From: Bombiscardovia nodaiensis
GTDB lineage: Bacteria; Actinomycetota; Actinomycetes; Actinomycetales; Bifidobacteriaceae
Length of the DNA: 64,000 nucleotides
Assembly (NCBI GenBank): GCA_033127725.1
Contig: AP026798.1
Location: 1,922,001 to 1,986,000 of the forward strand
Direction of reading: 5' to 3'
The position numbers were made by a program, and so were the translations under genes. The notes below the pieces were generated by a model. That model saw only the letters and a list, made by a program, of their open reading frames with translations, did no database searches and was not told the DNA's origin. Below are positions 2,661 to 60,084 of the stretch, one piece after another (the stretch's first letter is position 1; each line of letters starts with the position of its first letter).

Positions 2661-3805
2661 TCCGCGTCGCGTTCGCGGGGCGGGAGCTGGTTGCTGGGGC
2701 GTTTGTGGGCTGGTTCTTTGCCCCGTGTGCGTTTATGCTGTAAACGAGTTGCTTTCATTATAGTTGCAGCGTTTGCGGTGCTTGTGGCATCTGGTTGCGT
2801 TGACATACCGGGCTGGCGCAGGCTGCGCTGGTGTAGGTGGGCTTTGCGTAGGCTGCGCCATAACCATAGGCTGGCCAGTAGAATGACACTACCCCAGATG
2901 AGAGCCCACCAAGGAAAATCAGGGATAGTGGGTTTAGCCGTGGCGGCTTGCCTGGCTTTCTGCGGGGTGGGGTAAATACGCTGGCCCGTCACGAAAATAC
3001 GCTGCGTATTAATACCCAGGGGCGTACACGTCACCAACGTCACCAGATCCTGACCCTCAACCGGTTTCAAACTCCTCGTCTGATCAGGGTCCACCACCTG
3101 GGTTTTGATCACCTGGTAGGTGACCACATGGTTAAAACTGGAGATCGTGAACTGGTCCCCTGCTTTGACTTGGTCCAAATGCGTAAACATCGTCGCCTGC
3201 GCGAGTCCCCGATGCCCAGTCAGTACAGCGTGCGTGCCCATACCCCCTACCGGCAGGCTCGTACCCTCTAAATGCCCTATACCTTGTAGGAGCGTATCAT
3301 CACCAGTCCCATGATAGACGGGCAAGTCCAGGCGGATACTAGGGATCTGAATACGAGCCATCAACCCATGCCCCGCGTCCAACGCCTGCTCATACTGCTC
3401 ATGCAAACTCTTACCCTCCTTACTGGAGGGCTGGTTCGTGTTCGCCCGATAGGAGGCACCCGCATGCAACGCCTGATTATAGGCTTGAGCCAAAGCAATC
3501 TGCTGCCGGTCTTCCTTCGCTGAAGCCTGCCTAGTGTCAGGCACACCGTGAGCAATCAACCGTGACTGCTCATACTGCGCCACCCAAGACGCTGCCGACG
3601 GATACAATAACGCGCTTATCCCCGCCACCACCAGGACAAACACCAGAACCGCACTCACCCGCTCACCACGCACAAACCGACGAAACCGGCCAGCGTGAGA
3701 CACCCGACCAGGGGAAGACCTTCGACCAGGAGTGGCAGTGACGGCAGGCTCGGCAGATAGAGCAGGCTTACGGCAGTCTTGTTGCCTGTGCAGTCTCACA
3801 CGCAC
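2657..3805 (-). CDS. Class C sortase (pilin polymerase)
   Basis: A 382-residue transpeptidase that would join pilin subunits. An N-terminal transmembrane segment (about residues 50-70) precedes the catalytic domain. The catalytic His is in LTGHRGL (about 198), the Cys in TLVTCTP (about 258) and the Arg in INTQRIFV (about 267). A second membrane segment near residue 320 (WWALIWGSVILLASLWLW) is characteristic of class C enzymes. It is last in the pilus operon. The GTG start sits immediately behind a GGAGGAGGGGGG run, and a GTG two codons later is an alternative. The C-terminal tail is long and basic. Confidence 0.9.
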   Translation of the reverse strand: MRVRLHRQQDCRKPALSAEPAVTATPGRRSSPGRVSHAGRFRRFVRGERVSAVLVFVLVVAGISALLYPSAASWVAQYEQSRLIAHGVPDTRQASAKEDRQQIALAQAYNQALHAGASYRANTNQPSSKEGKSLHEQYEQALDAGHGLMARIQIPSIRLDLPVYHGTGDDTLLQGIGHLEGTSLPVGGMGTHAVLTGHRGLAQATMFTHLDQVKAGDQFTISSFNHVVTYQVIKTQVVDPDQTRSLKPVEGQDLVTLVTCTPLGINTQRIFVTGQRIYPTPQKARQAATAKPTIPDFPWWALIWGSVILLASLWLWRSLRKAHLHQRSLRQPGMSTQPDATSTANAATIMKATRLQHKRTRGKEPAHKRPSNQLPPRERDAD

Positions 3806-6012: not shown

Positions 6013-9000
6013 TTAGCCACGATGCCTGCCCCTAACCAGACCATCTAAGAGCCTACGAGACCGACCCACACCCAACAGCGAGCCCACCAAAAGCAAGCCC
6101 AAACCCAACAACAGGTAAGAGAACACGCTAATACCACCGGTTAAAGGCAGGCCCGGCACCTCATGCTGCACGTTCACAATCTCACCTAAGTCCACACTCG
6201 TATGAGACGCGTCAATCGTAAACGGATAGGTTTGCGTCGACAGCACATACCCAGCAGGAGCCTTCGTCTCCTTCAACAGGTACGAGCCAGCAGGCAGGCC
6301 AATCACTTTAAACGCCGCGTTCGCCGCATCCACGTCAATGAGATTCGCCTGGCACACGCCACCCGCCGTATTGCAATCCTGCACCAAGTTCAGAGAACTA
6401 CCAGACACGTCAGCCACCGGAGCACCCGCACTATCCGTAATCCGCCACTCCGAACCCGACAACGGCTTCACACCATCAGAGGTGGGACCAGTAGACTTCT
6501 TCCAAGCCACCACGCCAGCCAACAAACCAGCATCAGCAGCCGAACCACTCACCGTATCCGCAGGCAGAGGCACGGCAACTACACCGTTCGCATCCACATC
6601 CGAATCCTTCGACCGGTCAGCACCCTGAGTTTGCTTCGTAAACCCAACAGACTCACCCTTATCAAAGGTCACCGTATAAGCACCCTGAGCGGAGCGCAAA
6701 CCAGTAAACGCATACTTACCAGCCGCATCCGTCGAAGCCATCAGGTTCACCGGATTACCCAGGTTATCCGTACCAGATAACTTCACCGGCAGACCCTTCA
6801 CCACCGGCTCAGACGCATCACGAACACCAGCACCATCCAAATCCCACCAAGCAAGACCCGAAAGGCTGGAGGACACGACCTGCTGAGCCCGATAGACAGG
6901 GCCTACCGGATCCCTCAACCCCGTAATCCGCGCATAGCCTTCATTCGAGATAGTATCCCCGGCCTTATCGCCAACCACGTCAACAGCAATCTTCGCCGTA
7001 ATCGACTCACCAGAAGCAAACACACCAGGACGCGATAAGCGCACAGCCGTAGACTCAGCCACGGTTGCCGGGCAACCAGCCGAACCCAAATCAGCCTGCT
7101 TACACCACTTGACTGTCGCCGGCATAGGCGTCGCCGTATCCCGGGGCACATTCGACGCCTTCGTATACTCCACCACCACCGGATTACCAGCCACATCACC
7201 AGCAGTCACCGTCACCGATTTCAGCTTGGCTGTCCCAGAAAAGGAACTACCCGCCTGCCCGGTTACCGGCAACACATCAACAATCTCAGGAGCAGTCAAA
7301 CCACCAGTAGAAGGCTGAGTATTTTGCAGGCTCAACTCCCAGATGTTCGACTCAATCTGCGCATTACCGATACGGTTGACCTCAACCGTGGCCGTCAAAT
7401 TACGCTTATCAATCGCAATACCAATAATATTATCCACACTCACGGAAACCGTAGACTTACGAGAAGCCAAGTCAGTATCGCCAGCATCGGTCCATGCCAC
7501 CACACTATTGGTATAGGTACCGTTAGCTGCCGCTTTAGATACTCGCGCCTCTAAAATTATTTCTGGTACAGTTTGGTTCGACTTTTGCCCATTGATTTCC
7601 CAACGTATATACGTCTCACCAGGAGCACATGCAGGCCTCTTAGCGTCGGAAGGAGTTGAAGCTGAGATAACCGCTGGAGCAGGCTTCGAACCTCCACCCA
7701 ACCCATCAGGTGGCACATACTCCAGAGCCGCAGGCAAACAATCCTCCAACCACACCTTATGGCTTATTAACACTGAGCCGCCTGACAGAGATGCTTGTAA
7801 TTGGAATTGAAGTTTTTCATTCCCAGTTGCAGCAACATCAGAAACAAACGTACCAGAAGATCCTTTTCGCACGCCAGAAGTAACGCCGAGTTGTGCAAGT
7901 GCTATGGTTAATCGATCTCCCGGAGAACCTTCATGCTTGTCTGGATCGTAAAGTGATTGAATGACTTTCTTCTTATCTGAGATTAATATCTCATTTTTTG
8001 TCAACTCCCCGTCTTGCCATATATCAGCTGCCCACATAGGCAGAATCGTTCCCTTTGCTAGCGTTTTCCCTGAAGTTAAGCCAATTTCTACAGTTGCATT
8101 CGCTACTTCAGGTAGCACTATTCGAACACGAACTCTATTAACGGCTGTGTAAATAGGATGCGAAAGAGCCATCCCTTGTACTGAGTTGCCAGGAACTTTT
8201 TCTGGCGCATCATACCAAGTCACCCCCGCCTGTGAACAACTGGCATCCGCGCCAGAAGCAGGCACTGACCCACCAGCATATTCGATTTCAATTGGTGGAG
8301 CATCATTCTCAGTTGAGATGTACTTGCCATTTTTCCACATACCCGACAGCCATACTGGTCTTTTATTTGAAGGAATTGCATTGTAAGTGTCTGCGACCGT
8401 TCCAGTCTCCAAACCAGTAAGATTCAGCTTTGTGTTGTCCCAAGCCGTACAGCCTAAATGCGTCTCCTTCAAAGGCACCAGCTCTGACGAACCAGTAAAA
8501 GCCATTTGAGAGAGTACTTCTTGATCAGTTCCTACCCAGCTTTGTCCATCAAAGACCTTGGTATGATTACCGGGAAGTCCCTCGCCCCTTGCGCTGCTCC
8601 AACCTACATACTGACTCGTATAAAGATCGCGTGATTCATTTTCTGGAACACCTGTAACTCCGAAGAAAAATGAGCTGAAACTACCACGTAAGGCTATCGT
8701 ATTTACTACAGTGTTTGAATCATCGTGTATATCCTGATCTATACTAGTCTCAACATCTGCAGCAGTATAACCGTGCATCAGCAAATCTGTATAAGTGTTG
8801 GTTTCATGCAGATTCCACTCATTAAGGTAGATTCCGAAATCTTTGACCGTATCGACAGGCACGTAAGTCACTACTGTTAGAGATACTGCATACCCATACC
8901 CTGCTACAGGATTCCCATAGTTACCCCATGACTTCGTCGGATATGTGTTTAACGACCAGTCAGTATTTTTTAGAGTAAGATAACCTGGCTGCCCTGGTCC

Positions 9001-10468
9001 TGCTTGAACTAGTGTCAACTGTCCAGAATCACGTACCGAACATGATTCAGGCGTAAACTGAGTATCATTGCACGGTCCCAAACTTGACCTTGGCATATTA
9101 CTCAGATTGCCGCTCGTCTTCAAAATTACACCGTACTTACCGGGATCGGACTCCATCTGTGTATATTGGGTATCTGTCAGACCGGGGAATAGCTTACGAG
9201 GTGAAACGTCATCGGTAAACGTCACATCTCCAACAGCTGGCATAGAGCCTTTACCATCTGCGCGCGCTGAAATTAGCAATGGGAAATATTGAACGAGACA
9301 GGTTTTCGCATTATTCCCTGGGCAGGCAACCGCCGCAGGAGACCAGTTGATCTTACCATTACCAGACAAGCCCATTTTGGAAATATTCCACTTTAAAGCT
9401 GATGTAGCTTTTACGCTCGGAATACTAGGAGCTGCTACATCACTTAAACCGTCACCTTTCAATGTGACCGACTTGGGAGCCAATACAGTGCCGTTATGTA
9501 CCGCATTGCTCACACGAACCGACAAAGTAAACGACTCAGCAGCCCCCACCTTTGTACCTATATTGCAGGACAGCATCTGCTCAGGCAACTCATTAATTGA
9601 ATTCGCTGTATAAGGCGGTGTCGGACTAGGCACCACAGACGGAGTCAACGAAGAGCCATCACCACAAAAGGCCGGTAATTTATCCAAAATCATGCCCTTA
9701 GGCAGATCCATTTTAATTGTCGTGTTCTTCGACTCCACACCAGACACACCATAATCAAGCCGATACTGCACTAAATCATTCACACGCACAATACCGTTAT
9801 GCTCAGAAGAATCATTGCCCGGATTATCATCCGCGTCAAACGTAGGAGTACCGTCAGAAGTTATTGCCATCGCTATTGTTCGTGTACCCGCCTCGATACG
9901 AGGGGTCAACGTGTTCTTCATAGCATCAGCTAGCTTGCGCACACCATCACCAGTCGCAGTCCAAGCAGACTTCGCCCAACCAGCCGCAGTAGCAGCCGCC
10001 GACTTCGTCCAAGCAACAGTCGAGCGAGCAGCGGACTTCAAACTCCCCAGCCAGCTGGTGTCAGGAGTAATAGCCGCCACCTGAGACGAGCCAGCCGACC
10101 CAGAAGACATGGGAGCAGCAGAAGTAGCAGTAGAAGCAGACGGTGTAATACCGGCAGAAGAAGAATCAGAGGAAGCAGAGGAAGCAGAGGAAGCAGAAGC
10201 CTGCTCAGACGCTTGCTGAGCTACAGCAGCTGAATTATTACCCGCAGGGTTCGCTGCAGGCGCGCTAGCACCATTACTAGCGGTAGAAGGACTAGAAGTT
10301 AGAGACTGAGAGTCCTGGGGGGGGGGTCACAGTACTAGTAGCAGACGCAGCACCCTGCCCCTGCTCAGAGACACCAGCCACAGCCACCGGCACCACCACA
10401 GCACCCATCAAGCAGAAAGCCGCCAACACGGTCACTACCCGCCTGCCACAAGACTGCTGCTGAGCCAC
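6013..10468 (-). CDS. Large tip pilin/adhesin, phase-variable, out of frame as sequenced
   Basis: The first 50 codons (GTG at 10468) encode a signal peptide, MAQQQSCGRRVVTVLAAF..., and enter a run of ten C. As written, the frame then ends at a TAG at 10294-10292. The next frame is open without interruption from 10314 to 6013 and gives an Ala/Ser-rich linker, a long beta-rich ectodomain, an SdrD B-like domain (LAWWDLDGAG), a SpaA domain with E-box YLLKETKAPAGY, and the sorting signal LPLTG near residue 1441 plus a membrane anchor. With nine or twelve C the whole reads through as a protein of about 1484 residues. GTG 10468 is favoured by the GAGGGG seven bases upstream. Without slippage, translation could start only at ATG 10110, which lacks a signal peptide. 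It is the first gene of the pilus operon. Confidence 0.88.
10317..10326. repeat. G10 homopolymer tract in the tip pilin gene (contingency switch, OFF)
   Basis: Ten consecutive G on the plus strand (C on the coding strand) lie directly after the signal peptide codons. Ten gives the reading TPPPGLSVSNF-stop. Eleven gives a TAA six codons on. Nine or twelve restores the long frame (TPPQDSQS...). Such tracts gain or lose units by slipped-strand mispairing. Confidence 0.9.
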
Positions 10469-54986: not shown

Positions 54987-55491
54987 ACCGCGCTCTCACC
55001 GCGGCCGCGCACTCGTGCGCATCGCCTGGACGCCTTACTCAAAAGTCTTCCCTAGCGTAAAGCGGACACCGTCGCCTGCTGCAAAGCAGTGAGCAGGGGG
55101 ATCAACGCCTACGCTTCACGGCGACCATGCAGAGTCGCCACCCTTCTAGTATCGCACACTTTTTATCCCCTGCAGTAACATCTGTGAGCGTTGCACAATT
55201 CTTCTCCCGCAATCACCCCTGCATTCAGTATGTACGCCAGCAAAAAACAACAAGTTAGGTTGGTATATACAATCAAGCAAATTACACAGAACAGGTTCAA
55301 GATTTGCTTGTACAGCAGGAAAAAGCTGGAATTGTGGTGCTGTTCAGCTGATAATGCTAGACTGTCTGCTATTCATGTGACTTTGCTTGCCTTGCGGTTG
55401 GGGAACTCGGGCACTGCGGTCCAACTAGCACGTTTCGCTTTATTTTGGTACAGCAGCTATTTACGGCTGCTACCGCCGCTTTGGAGGGGTT
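54987..55491. other. Divergent intergenic region between rne and the RCC1 protein gene
   Basis: 505 bases without a supported gene. Near the RCC1 gene, TTGTGG and TAATGC lie about 17 bases apart around 55335-55365 and may be its promoter. A GGAGGGG site lies six bases before its ATG. The half near rne is GC-rich; the half near the RCC1 gene is AT-rich. Confidence 0.45.
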
Positions 55492-58400
55492 ATGCGTAAG
55501 GTACGCACTGTGAGTACACTCTTCGTACTCATGTCCTTGACTGTCTTGGGGGGGGGGTCCGCTAGTTTAGCGCGCCCCATACTCGCCCATGCTGATTCCG
55601 CAGATTTAGGTTTTTCTCTCAATCCAGATCATGGCCCAGTTGCTGGCGGCAACGAAGTCGCCATCAAGCCGCCTTTCCAAACCAGTATCAAATTTAAGAA
55701 AATAAGCTCCGGCAGTACTCATATTCTTGCCATCGGAGATGACGATAATACTTGGGCTTGGGGTTCGAACGATTCCACTTTATTGGGTTCAGATACACCA
55801 ATCGTGGGAGCCGTACTCCCAGTAAAGGTTAAAACGCCAGCAGGGGTAAGATTCACCGAAGTGAGCGCGGGCTGGTATCACAATCTCGCCATCGGCAGCG
55901 ATAACCGCATCTACTCATGGGGGTCCAACAATGTCGGTCAGTTGGGAGATGGGGGCACCGTTAGCAGATCAATCCCCGCGCTAGTGAACCTATCTGCTCC
56001 AGCTGGTGCTCGTTTCGTTAGTGTAATAGCTAGCGGTTACGGCAACGCTTCTTATGCACTTGATAGTTATGGCAACGTCTATGCTTGGGGACGGAACATT
56101 TGGGGGCAGTTAGGAGTTGGCGATACAGCCAATCACCTATTACCTACACCTTTGAATACCTCAGTCAAGTTCTCTGATCTCAGCTGCAGTGGAGAACATT
56201 GCTTAGCTATTTCTAATAGCGGAACCCTTTACTCGTGGGGTACAAATAATTACGGACAATTAGGCGACGGCACCACTGTCAATAGCAGCTCCCCCAAAGC
56301 CATCTACACTTCGACCCCATTCATAAAAATCAGTGCTGGAGGTCAGGCAGATTGGGGTCTGGCTGGTAACTTTATCGAGGGATTTTCTCTCGCTCTCGAT
56401 CAACTCGGGAATCTGTATACTTGGGGATTCAACAATGTGGGTCAGCTGGGCAACGGCACCACTACAAATCGTTCCACTCCCCAGCAAGTCTCCACACCTG
56501 TACCATTCACACGCATCAGCGCCGGATCATACTTCGCTCTCGCATTGGGCAACAACGGCAAAGCATACGCTTGGGGTTCAAATAGCAGCTATAACGTCCA
56601 ATATTCAAGCGCCGGTATTCTAGGAGACGGCACCACTACAGACAGGTATAGGCCTACTCTGGTAGCATCTCCGGCCGGTGTAGAGTTTGCAGATGTAAGC
56701 GCAGGATGGATCCACTCCAAAGGCCTTACCACGGAAGGCAAAGTCTACTCATGGGGCCCCAACCAATACGGACAGCTCGGCGACGGCACAAAAATATGGC
56801 GCACCACCCCTGTACCAGTAGCAAAGCCAAATATTGTCGTCACTGCTGTACGCTTTGACGCACTCGCTACCGGCACTCCCCGGCACGATACTGCTGAAGA
56901 CTTGTGGTATGTAATTGCACCCGGGCATCCTGCCGGTACCGTGAACGTCTATATAGATTGGACACTGAACGGCTCGCCTCAAACTAGAGCTACGCTCAAA
57001 TATACATATAGGACTTCTTACACAGTTCATTTTGATATGGCAGGCGCTCCCGGCACCGCCCCAGCTGATCAGCACCCCTTATCAAGCAATGACGAAACTA
57101 TTTCTTGGCCTAATCCGACGCCTACGTGGTCTCATCATTGGTTCGATGGCTGGTTTACAGCTGACGGAAAACCTTGGGATTTCGACGATACTGTCAGTTC
57201 ATCTATGACTCTAACGGCAAAATGGGAGGAGTGGAAGTTCACTCTTGACCCCGACCGTGGACCAACTACAGGAGGTAATACCGTAGCTATTACTCCGCCT
57301 CTTGCCCCGCAGGGCATCAGTTTCAGTCGGATTAGTAGCGGCAGTAAGCATACCCTTGCCATCGGCTCCGACGGCAACACTTACGCATGGGGGTCGAACG
57401 AATACGGCCAACTCGGCGACGATAGTTCGAGTAACCAAAATCTGCCAGTACGAGTGCTTGCTCCAGCAAATGTGCATTTCTTACAGGTGAGTGCAGGCAG
57501 CGAATTCTCAGCTGCACTCGGCTCCGACGGCAGCATCTACACTTGGGGCAGAAACTCCGCAGGGCAACTGGGCAATGGCACTCTAACTAACCAACCCACA
57601 CCAAGCCGTATTGCACAAGGTGCCTTACCGGTTGGCAAACGATACAAGCAAGTCAGCGCCGGAGATAGCCATGTTTTAGCCCTTGCCAATACCAACAGGA
57701 TATACGCATGGGGCCAAAACACAGAGGGACAACTCGGCGACGGAACGCAGATTAACCGAAGGCTGCCGGTTCAAGTTCAATTAGGGCCACAAATCGACGG
57801 CGTGACCTTTACTAGTATTAGTGCTGGCGCGAACCACTCCTTGGCCATCGGGAAGGATAACAACACTTACGCCTGGGGCCGTAATGTCGAAGGGCAGCTC
57901 GGCATCGGCACTAATTCAAGTCTAGAAAAGTCACCGGTTAAGATCCAGTCGGGTGCACTCCCCGCCGGAGCGCACTTTACGCAAATCAGTGCGGGCGGCC
58001 GCTATTCTTTGGCCGTAGATAACAACAATAACCTGTACGCTTGGGGCGACAACCAATCGAGCCAGCTGGGCGACGGAACGACCGTGGGCAAGAATGCGCC
58101 GACTCAGGTGAATCCTGGAGTTATACCATCTGGTGTCAGTTTTACCCACATAAGCGCGGGCGACAAGCATTCCTTAGTTATTGACTCCAACGGAGACGCT
58201 TACACATGGGGCAGCAATGACAACGGCCAGCTCGGAGATAACACGAGCGGCAGCAACCGCTCCACGCCAGTGAAGGTACAGCAAGGAACGCTTCCAACAG
58301 GAGTTCGTTTGAACCAAATCAGCGCAGGAGGCACACAGTCTACAGCCATCGGTAGCGACGGCCACGCATACACATGGGGCGGGAACGGATACGGCCAGCT

Positions 58401-58836
58401 CGGCTCAGGCAGCAATGGTGCCGGTAATCCGCCCGATACGACAGCGGACCAGCACGAACCAGTCCAAGTTGGATTACAAAAACTCGTAGTTACCGGCGTT
58501 AAGTTTGACCAGACAGAGGCCACGCCCGCGCCAGTTTGGAATGCCGCAAAAGGCGTATGGATAGTAAAGGCCCCCGCCCACGAAGCACAGCTCGTAACTG
58601 CCAATATTCACTGGATACTGGGAAGTCAAGCCCAAGATGACTACCCTTTGCCCTACACCTACGAATTCTTACTGCCCATTGCAGGAGCAATACCGCTGCA
58701 ACGCCTCACCGGTGGCAGCATGCTCTGCCTTACTCTACTTGCAGCGCTTGTATACGCAGGCTATCAGCTTGCCCGGCAGCGCAAAAGTAAGTCGTCTTTA
58801 GATTCGAAAGTACCGCAAGAGCCGGAACGAGTATAA
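55492..58836 (+). CDS. Giant surface protein: two seven-repeat RCC1 propellers, phase-variable
   Basis: 1114 residues. A signal peptide (cleavage likely after AHA, about residue 35) contains a G10 tract. Unit 1 opens with LGFSLNPDHGPVAGGNEV (TIG-like) and has seven RCC1 repeats with the YSWGTNNYGQLGDGT pattern, then a VVTAVRFD domain. A Listeria-Bacteroides (InlB B-type) repeat follows (YTVHFDM...GWFTADGKPW...LTAKW). Unit 2 repeats the plan: TLDPDRGPTTGGNTV, seven RCC1 repeats, VVTGVKFD. Seven repeats make one RCC1 beta-propeller, so two are expected. The end LPIAG, a hydrophobic stretch and RQRKSKSS resemble a non-canonical sorting signal. It is probably an adhesin; the ligand is unknown. 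Confidence 0.88.
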   Translation: MRKVRTVSTLFVLMSLTVLGGGSASLARPILAHADSADLGFSLNPDHGPVAGGNEVAIKPPFQTSIKFKKISSGSTHILAIGDDDNTWAWGSNDSTLLGSDTPIVGAVLPVKVKTPAGVRFTEVSAGWYHNLAIGSDNRIYSWGSNNVGQLGDGGTVSRSIPALVNLSAPAGARFVSVIASGYGNASYALDSYGNVYAWGRNIWGQLGVGDTANHLLPTPLNTSVKFSDLSCSGEHCLAISNSGTLYSWGTNNYGQLGDGTTVNSSSPKAIYTSTPFIKISAGGQADWGLAGNFIEGFSLALDQLGNLYTWGFNNVGQLGNGTTTNRSTPQQVSTPVPFTRISAGSYFALALGNNGKAYAWGSNSSYNVQYSSAGILGDGTTTDRYRPTLVASPAGVEFADVSAGWIHSKGLTTEGKVYSWGPNQYGQLGDGTKIWRTTPVPVAKPNIVVTAVRFDALATGTPRHDTAEDLWYVIAPGHPAGTVNVYIDWTLNGSPQTRATLKYTYRTSYTVHFDMAGAPGTAPADQHPLSSNDETISWPNPTPTWSHHWFDGWFTADGKPWDFDDTVSSSMTLTAKWEEWKFTLDPDRGPTTGGNTVAITPPLAPQGISFSRISSGSKHTLAIGSDGNTYAWGSNEYGQLGDDSSSNQNLPVRVLAPANVHFLQVSAGSEFSAALGSDGSIYTWGRNSAGQLGNGTLTNQPTPSRIAQGALPVGKRYKQVSAGDSHVLALANTNRIYAWGQNTEGQLGDGTQINRRLPVQVQLGPQIDGVTFTSISAGANHSLAIGKDNNTYAWGRNVEGQLGIGTNSSLEKSPVKIQSGALPAGAHFTQISAGGRYSLAVDNNNNLYAWGDNQSSQLGDGTTVGKNAPTQVNPGVIPSGVSFTHISAGDKHSLVIDSNGDAYTWGSNDNGQLGDNTSGSNRSTPVKVQQGTLPTGVRLNQISAGGTQSTAIGSDGHAYTWGGNGYGQLGSGSNGAGNPPDTTADQHEPVQVGLQKLVVTGVKFDQTEATPAPVWNAAKGVWIVKAPAHEAQLVTANIHWILGSQAQDDYPLPYTYEFLLPIAGAIPLQRLTGGSMLCLTLLAALVYAGYQLARQRKSKSSLDSKVPQEPERV
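55548..55557. repeat. G10 homopolymer tract in the RCC1 protein signal peptide (contingency switch, ON)
   Basis: Ten consecutive G encode the end of VLGGGS (codons 19-22). Ten keeps the 1114-residue frame. Nine gives LGGGPLV then TAG, and eleven gives LGGGVR then TAG, so both shifts end translation within a few codons. Confidence 0.9.
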
Positions 58837-58854
58837 TAGATGTTTTACGATATT

Positions 58855-60084
58855 TTAATTCATCAAAGAATCAATCTGCTCCTGTGCCCATTGCCAGCGA
58901 GAAGCCATAATCTCTTGGGAAGCAGCATCTAAGCGATGCACATGAGCTAAGGGCGTAACTTGGGCGAGCGCAGCGCGTATTTGCGCAAGGTATCGGGCTG
59001 CTTGGCCTGCGGTCACTTGGAAGAGAGATAGGGTCTCGGCTTGCATGAACGAAGCTAGGCTAGGGCTGAGATCTCCAAAGAGGGAAAGCTGATGTACCTC
59101 TGCCTTGCTGCCTTCGTAAGGTTCTGGGTTGAGGTCGAAGGTCGGAGCTAGCTGCCAACTCTTGCCCATGCGCAAGAAACCATGGTTGCGCAAGTGGTCA
59201 TCTAAGTTGCCGATGACCGAGCCGAACGCTGCTCGAAGCCAGAGCTGGCGAGTGTCAGCCCCAATGCTGGCAACGAAATCTGCGAAGTCTAGCCAGTCGC
59301 CGCCTTGCCCGTCCGAAGCATCGAGTGCAGTCATTGCAGAAATGTAGGGAATGCGCTGAAGCTGGTTGTTTTGCTCACTTGACGGGCGGTCAAAACGCTG
59401 CGTAAGCAAGATAGTCCGCTTGCGGCCCACCTCGTCCGCAATGCTCAGTACACGATACTGGGGAACGCTGATGCCCGCTTTTTGTGCCAGCTCAAGGGTC
59501 ACAGCCTCCCAACCAATAACATCCCAGCGGTCGCCTAACGGTTTAGGGAACTTAGCTAGCCAGAGTTTGCCGCCGTCGCGCACACTTGCTTTGGGGCGAG
59601 CGCCTCCCAAAGAGCCGGTGGCGCGATAGAGGCGCCGCAAAGCTATTTCGCTCACCTCTACCCCTTCTTCAACTGCGTCGGCAGTGTTGAGCAGGCCTGG
59701 TAAATCGGTGAGCACGGGTACACCATCGCTGCCAGATAGGGGTTCACCGTCCAAGAAGAATCGGCAAGCACCCTGACGGGTGAGATCATCAACACCAAGC
59801 AGGTATTCAATTTCACTCAGGCGAGAACGGCCCAGCGAACGCTGTAAGAGCTTTCGCCCCCAGCGGTCCGGCGCAGCATCGGAGAAGGGTCCCAGCCCTT
59901 GCAGAGGGTATGCGCCAAGTGTGAGGGGAAGAGAAGGTGCCAGCTCGTATGCTAGCGGCTCGTTGATGTAGGAGGCGACATACTGGAAGGAGAGGCCAGT
60001 TCTGTTGATATAGAGGTTGCCAGCAAGGACTTAGCGGCCATTGCCTAGGGTGGTACGCACCTCTACTTGGTCGGGCAGGCTCAT
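58855..60084 (-). pseudogene. hipA: HipA-type kinase toxin with a premature stop at codon 18
   Basis: From ATG 60084 the protein reads MSLPDQVEVRTTLGNGR, then TAA (60033-60031). The same frame continues VLAGNLYINRTGLSFQY and FSDAAPDRWGRKLLQ, then the kinase core GNLDDHLRNHGFL and APTFDLNP, to 58855, 409 residues in all. HipA toxins phosphorylate tRNA synthetase or other targets; HipB neutralises them. The frame is otherwise intact, so the nonsense change is recent. Only a TTG at 59754 could restart, losing the N-subdomain. Its start overlaps the hipB stop in ATGA. Confidence 0.88.

Follow-up and report, generated by a model that had tools for sequence, protein, structure and literature searches.

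Within the window (the whole stretch of DNA analyzed, 64 kb of the 2.29-Mb, two-contig genome of the carpenter-bee gut bacterium Bombiscardovia nodaiensis), an open reading frame of 1114 codons at 55492-58836 on the forward strand encodes an RCC1-repeat surface protein that is in frame (ON) in the assembly. A Shine-Dalgarno-like GGAGGGG (55483-55489, +) precedes it, directly downstream of a hairpin predicted by single-sequence folding (55447-55474, +), and its downstream neighbor is an ORF on the opposite strand (58855-59754). The protein starts with a putative Sec signal peptide, MRKVR...AHA (55492-55593, +), whose peak hydropathy is 2.14 and whose cleavage after AHA was read by eye. Within this signal peptide, a run of ten Gs (G10; 55548-55557, +) supplies the third base of codon 19 and the whole of codons 20-22 (L19 G20 G21 G22) and keeps the frame open. 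When the tract was varied in silico from G7 to G13, lengths of 7, 10, and 13 preserved the open frame, while 8, 9, 11, and 12 led to a stop after 23-26 residues. A previous sequence-only reading had described ten Gs in codons 19-22 of a 1114-residue frame, which is exact, and two closely spaced TAG triplets in the alternative frames. Re-reading of the 5′ end confirmed its predicted products, ...GGGPLV-stop for G9 and ...GGGVR-stop for G11, and located the triplets: G8 or G11 reaches the TAG at 55563-55565 (+), and G9 or G12 the TAG at 55568-55570 (+).

The window has an unremarkable count of 8-G words (six, compared to a shuffle mean of 3.56, with at least six in 20 of 100 shuffles). For runs of at least ten, a first-order Markov model expects about 0.05 (G) plus 0.15 (C) per 64 kb, and two were observed. 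What rules out a plain chance origin of the tract is its placement, not the unremarkable 8-mer count: 27 of the 28 G-sense signal-peptide tracts in this genome start 53-64 nt past the start codon. The case for the G10 tract thus stands on length, position, and recurrence.

Pfam analysis of the focal protein detected 14 RCC1 stretches, RCC1-like domains, and one Listeria-Bacteroides repeat. The first RCC1 propeller spans residues about 60-450 (55669-56841, +; Pfam, structure model, and Foldseek) and the second residues about 600-995 (57289-58476, +; Pfam and structure model); the Listeria-Bacteroides repeat (Flg_new in Pfam; residues 510-577; 57019-57222, +) occurs only ahead of the second RCC1 domain. 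An AlphaFold2 model based on 30 aligned relatives (mean pLDDT 85.8, pTM 0.60) has two halves rich in strands and ends in a C-terminal helix. The top solved Foldseek matches are UVR8 propellers, with TM-scores of up to 0.93 by target length, and a sequence search against solved structures returned the same family; an NCBIfam search with the focal protein returned no match. With 14 Pfam stretches and two propellers in the model, the protein is made up of several RCC1 domains of about seven repeats each. Its C-terminus is a sorting-like tail (58672-58833, +) composed of LPIAG rather than LPxTG (residues 1061-1065), a hydrophobic helix (residues 1075-1101), and a basic end, and L1061, P1062, A1064, and G1065 show no or almost no variation across the 30 aligned relatives. 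Given this conserved tail and the nine sortase places in the genome, we infer that the focal RCC1 protein is likely anchored to the cell wall, where a function as a putative adhesin is plausible.

Tract-bearing genes in the B. nodaiensis genome

The B. nodaiensis genome contains 53 tracts of at least eight Gs, and the stretches fetched from it contain 51 ORFs related to the focal protein. RCC1 repeats were recognized by regular expression in 41 of the 51; the signal-peptide tract is present in 22 of these 41 and absent from 19. Tracts were dropped if the downstream frame was shorter than 250 codons or if the best upstream start had a peak hydropathy below 1.7, a cut that removes the tracts at 243246, 683724, 1045800, and 1049354. 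By this filter, G-sense signal-peptide tracts occur in 28 genes (27 G10 and one G11), the focal gene among them, with 21 in frame and seven out of frame. RCC1 repeats accompany the tract in 22 genes (16 in frame and six out), and the remaining six of the 28 have no RCC1 repeat by regular expression. Five further genes carry C-sense tracts, and four of the five are out of frame. The length that would put a G-sense gene in frame is 10/13 in 22 genes, 9/12 in four, and 8/11 in two.

Five secreted proteins that are non-RCC1 by regular expression have an in-frame signal-peptide G10 (185736, 266597, 340962, 1513029, and 1806131, labeled L093, L095, L098, L115, and L125), a pattern reminiscent of a cassette that carries signal peptide and tract from gene to gene. 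Another locus of this genome has four long G runs (12, 13, 9, and 10) within 5 kb (L110; 1241191-1241202, 1243751-1243763, and 1245861-1245945), and our filter connected none of them with a signal peptide.

The sequence-only reading had proposed that the tract is built for clean truncation, and the family bears this out. Of 65 genes (27 from B. nodaiensis and 38 from its sister species B. apis), 28 have a stop within 27 nt in each alternative frame, whereas a synonymous-codon resampling null averaged 4.7 and peaked at 12 over 500 draws; the paralogs are related, so these genes are not independent trials. With near-identical flanks removed, 14 of 39 genes have near stops, where the null averages 2.8 and never exceeds 8. 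At other sites of these genes, the near-stop rate is 8.7% of 6120 positions.

GGG is the rarest Gly codon in the tract genes, constituting 8.8% of Gly codons past the tract. Among six tract-less paralogs with listed codons, two write the Gly run in mixed codons, with LGGG spelled as GGA GGT GGA and LGGGG as GGA GGT GGG GGG. The sequence-only reading had held that relatives encoding a constant Gly run through silent codons that interrupt the Gs would speak against a switch; such spellings do exist, but only in these two of the six tract-less paralogs. A protein-level Gly motif was rejected as the reason for the tract on the grounds of both the rarity of GGG and the other spellings of the Gly run.

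A hairpin before the Shine-Dalgarno sequence recurs in the family with differing sequence. The mean folding z was -1.21 for the 65 genes versus -0.11 for 138 control starts, and z fell below -1.5 in 41.5% of family genes versus 13.0% of control starts. One B. nodaiensis gene, whose tract lies 167 nt past the start, is left out of the near-stop and hairpin sets of 65 genes. MAFFT combined with RNAalifold found no consensus structure in the 65 upstream sequences, and the hairpin is therefore predicted from single-sequence folding energies only. An Rfam search of 55300-55560 yielded no match at E up to 1.

Orthologs and tract lengths in related genomes

Counts for B. apis and B. actinocoloniiforme refer to fetched stretches rather than whole genomes. 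After the filter used for B. nodaiensis, the B. apis stretches contain 38 G-sense genes, including eight with G10 in frame, 29 with G11 out of frame, and one with G11 in frame, as well as four C-sense tract genes, all out of frame; two G11 tracts with family-like flanks (562273 and 696470) are absent from the tract table underlying these numbers. The B. apis ortholog of the focal gene (266623), identified with the same downstream flank, has G11 and is out of frame. The two proteins share 93.1% amino acid identity, and dN/dS is 0.21 over 1092 codons. For seven further in-frame/out-of-frame pairs between the two species, dN/dS ranges from 0.22 to 0.42. These eight pairs were picked from 12 reciprocal-best pairs because only one of the two species has the gene in frame, and synteny was examined for the focal pair alone. 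Where both members of a reciprocal-best pair have a frame call (12 pairs), tract length is unequal in nine and equal in three.

More than 1000 open codons follow the tract in 22 of 36 out-of-frame G-sense genes (five of seven in B. nodaiensis and 17 of 29 in B. apis). Because of these long open frames and the dN/dS values of 0.21-0.42, the OFF alleles appear to be kept up rather than decaying. The ON/OFF interpretation offered from sequence alone gains from the focal pair, in which G11 breaks the frame of the B. apis ortholog while the remainder is under purifying selection. The comparison of tract length among related genomes, which had been proposed as a check, likewise revealed variation with consequences for the frame, as in focal G10 versus G11. 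In the public annotation, the out-of-frame ortholog (P0004, B. apis locus L133) starts at MSWGGG, past the true signal peptide; annotation of other OFF copies may likewise begin past the signal peptide.

The tract extends to other lineages. In B. actinocoloniiforme (G001), five RCC1 genes carry it at the same place with lengths of 11, 11, 11, 12, and 13, and the G12 gene is the only one in frame. Among the loci read in genome G026, there are two signal-peptide G12 tracts, one in frame and one out. In RCC1 genes of the B. asteroides type, the tract sits just past the signal peptide, at another codon. We analyzed the 30 asteroides-type loci that were fetched of 110 matched places; 26 of the 30 carry the tract and four are without it, a proportion that is biased since the query contained the tract, whereas length is not. 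Ten of the 26 are in frame (eight G11, one G17, and one G12) and 16 out of frame (13 G12 and three G13). A tract placed elsewhere with an identical effect on the frame suggests repeated recruitment or movement of the device. The G17 gene (L263 in G007) is in frame because 17 equals 11 modulo 3. In genome G013, two pilin-like starts (L217 and L231) share the same signal peptide, with C10 and C13, and are both out of frame. B. coagulans locus L051 contains no run of seven or more, and the regular expression for the signal peptide found nothing in B. coagulans.

Proposed slipped-strand switching and alternative explanations

The focal gene has a long pure tract at a site where a one-base change breaks the expression frame. 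These frame consequences, together with recurrence in dozens of paralogs, purifying selection, and enriched near stops, make it highly probable that G10 is a slipped-strand contingency switch conferring ON/OFF phase variation on an RCC1 beta-propeller protein. According to this model, replication slippage in living populations would change the length of G10 in the signal peptide. With 10 (or 7 or 13) Gs, the ribosome would pass the signal peptide, and the 1114-aa protein would be exported, would probably be anchored to the cell wall by sortase, and would show two RCC1 beta-propellers, which may bind host or neighbor surfaces. The gain or loss of one G would bring a TAG within a few codons, giving a 24-25-residue peptide and no surface protein. 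Individual cells could then differ in which propeller proteins, and which of some other secreted proteins with the G-tract, are ON or OFF. Against the model count the uniform tract length within each genome, the three reciprocal-best pairs of equal length, and the loci that lack a tract, namely 19 of the 41 RCC1-bearing ORFs, B. coagulans L051, and four of the 30 asteroides-type loci. We did not find a MutS domain in the B. nodaiensis genome (as a control, it was found in 11 of 14 genomes), and NucS was found; according to the available part of PMC8228993, repair of the NucS type cannot correct indels.

Tract length depends on the quality of the assemblies. The two new Bombiscardovia isolates, including the plasmid-carrying B. 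nodaiensis type strain Kim37-2, came from carpenter bees and were sequenced on PacBio Sequel or RSII, the sole genome method named in the accessible text (PMC10433979). Tract lengths in both genomes may therefore be off by one, and single ON/OFF calls, which come from the assemblies, are provisional. It might accordingly be argued that the tract just spells an invariant Gly-Gly-Gly, that frame breaks are assembly homopolymer errors, and that there is no switch; the clustering of lengths at 10 in B. nodaiensis and 11 in B. apis would agree with this, as would the caution, given in the part of PMC9187656 available, that annotated G-tract lengths can be wrong. We consider this explanation improbable. 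In-frame lengths differ among genes (10/13, 9/12, or 8/11), so one correction cannot fit all; G10 and G11 alike occur at this site in B. apis; tracts elsewhere in the fetched stretches vary in length; B. actinocoloniiforme and asteroides-type genomes show the same mixture; and neither the rarity of GGG nor the mixed spelling in tract-less paralogs fits a Gly run fixed in this form.

Slightly less probable still is action at the RNA level, in which polymerase slippage or ribosomal frameshifting would yield a steady full-length fraction from any allele. A maintained slippery site would suit the uniform tract length per genome, and such runs can slip in polymerases, according to a general statement in PMC9187656, but the close stops in both alternative frames suit full truncation, and transcription in B. 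breve drops past the out-of-frame stop (PMC9187656, as far as available). That the out-of-frame copies are decaying pseudogenes instead of OFF states is very improbable: the long open frames past the tract and the low dN/dS in all eight pairs tested argue against decay, even though the family does include fragmented members at 235868-234831 and 1625689/1627371, and eight of its 41 RCC1-bearing ORFs in B. nodaiensis are shorter than 700 aa.

Tract length also displays a pattern at the level of the genome. Whatever their frame, signal-peptide tracts are near-uniform in each genome, with 10 in 32 of 33 in B. nodaiensis and 11 in 34 of 42 in B. apis, and this uniformity spans RCC1, non-RCC1, and pilin-like genes. 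Other tracts in the fetched stretches range from 7 to 13 in B. nodaiensis and from 7 to 12 in B. apis, where two of these other tracts, both G11, resemble family members. The uniform length may be an effect of long-read consensus calling or a true slippage equilibrium. The B. nodaiensis paralogs are in frame at different lengths, so no single correction turns all genes ON, and frame heterogeneity holds whatever the cause of the uniform length. A genome-wide set-point, in which tracts relax fast to a species-specific length and slippage bias controls the phasome globally atop gene-by-gene switching, is a speculative and rather unlikely possibility. In frame at a length of 10 are 22 of 28 G-sense genes in B. 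nodaiensis and 32 of 38 in B. apis; if there were such a set-point, a one-base shift would turn a mostly-ON coat into a mostly-OFF coat.

Comparison with known phase-variable systems

The mechanism is already known in Bifidobacteriaceae, in pili (PMC9187656) and in Gardnerella surface genes (PMC11287997), as described in the accessible portions of these papers. In B. breve UCC2003, a member of the same family as the focal host, an intragenic G10 or G11 likewise separates a Sec signal from a long surface-protein frame, and its length decides expression of the pili (PMC9187656). In the same part of that paper, cultures started from a single colony showed G9 at 6.5% for a G10 locus and G12 at 59% for a locus annotated as G11, and re-framing of the G-tract restored pili. 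Length change was measured in B. breve, whereas here slippage is proposed from a comparison of assembled sequences. The B. breve system comprises two pilin operons, each described as a first gene with a downstream sortase (PMC9187656). By contrast, the focal gene is a single-gene unit of another protein family with the tract inside the signal peptide and dozens of paralogs; the sortase place of the window is at 2978-3352, and the focal gene does not lead a pilin operon that has a sortase of its own. Gardnerella, also of this family, has G/C tracts near surface-protein genes, including those for InlB B-repeat and LPXTG proteins, and variation of one tract was shown by Sanger sequencing; most of the tracts are upstream of the ORF, and the available text does not mention the RCC1 family (PMC11287997).

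The protein family has been described as well. RCC1 wall proteins of honeybee bifidobacteria likewise have multi-copy propellers; they feature a Listeria-Bacteroides repeat ahead of each RCC1 domain and a C-terminal sorting signal of LPxTG, hydrophobic stretch, and basic tail, where the focal protein has a single repeat and LPIAG, and their genes number 7-24 per genome (PMC4449606, PMC3447821, both as available). The RCC1 proteins form a large surface family of bee-gut bifidobacteria that, according to the accessible text of PMC3447821, has been given no distinct function; that text makes no mention of phase variation; that of PMC4449606 mentions no phase variation, homopolymer, or frameshift. 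Our literature search, which missed most subscription papers and preprints, found no report tying RCC1 and phase variation to Bifidobacterium. Nor did it find literature joining Bombiscardovia with RCC1, and the matches for RCC1 and phase variation look unrelated, as far as their available parts indicate. The earlier remark that no description of phase variation is known for an RCC1-type surface protein agrees with these searches. The novelty lies in the use of the switch throughout an entire RCC1 propeller family, inside or just past the signal peptide.

The phasomes of Campylobacter and Neisseria are diverse gene sets. As proposed for B. nodaiensis, they contain many independent simple-repeat switches that generate combinatorial diversity (PMC6321876, PMC5084427, in the parts available). 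Unlike these phasomes, the tracts described here belong largely to a single family of paralogs with a common signal-peptide tract, and their host is a Gram-positive insect symbiont. The presence of the tract in dozens of sister genes makes many different surface coats possible. If the model is true, it would provide a case of combinatorial surface variation in a beneficial insect symbiont with cultured strains, and candidate purposes of such variation include immune exposure, phage avoidance, and binding in different gut niches. If dozens of these genes switch independently of one another, ON and OFF states have been lumped together in strain comparisons and in annotation.

The window also contains a pilin-like gene with a tract (ORF 6013-10110, reverse strand), which encodes SdrD_B and SpaA domains. 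In coding sense, this tract is a C10 at 10317-10326; at this length the signal peptide is out of the body frame, so that the gene is OFF, and it would be in frame at 9 or 12. A near-identical copy of this C10 tract is located at 1728654 in the same genome.
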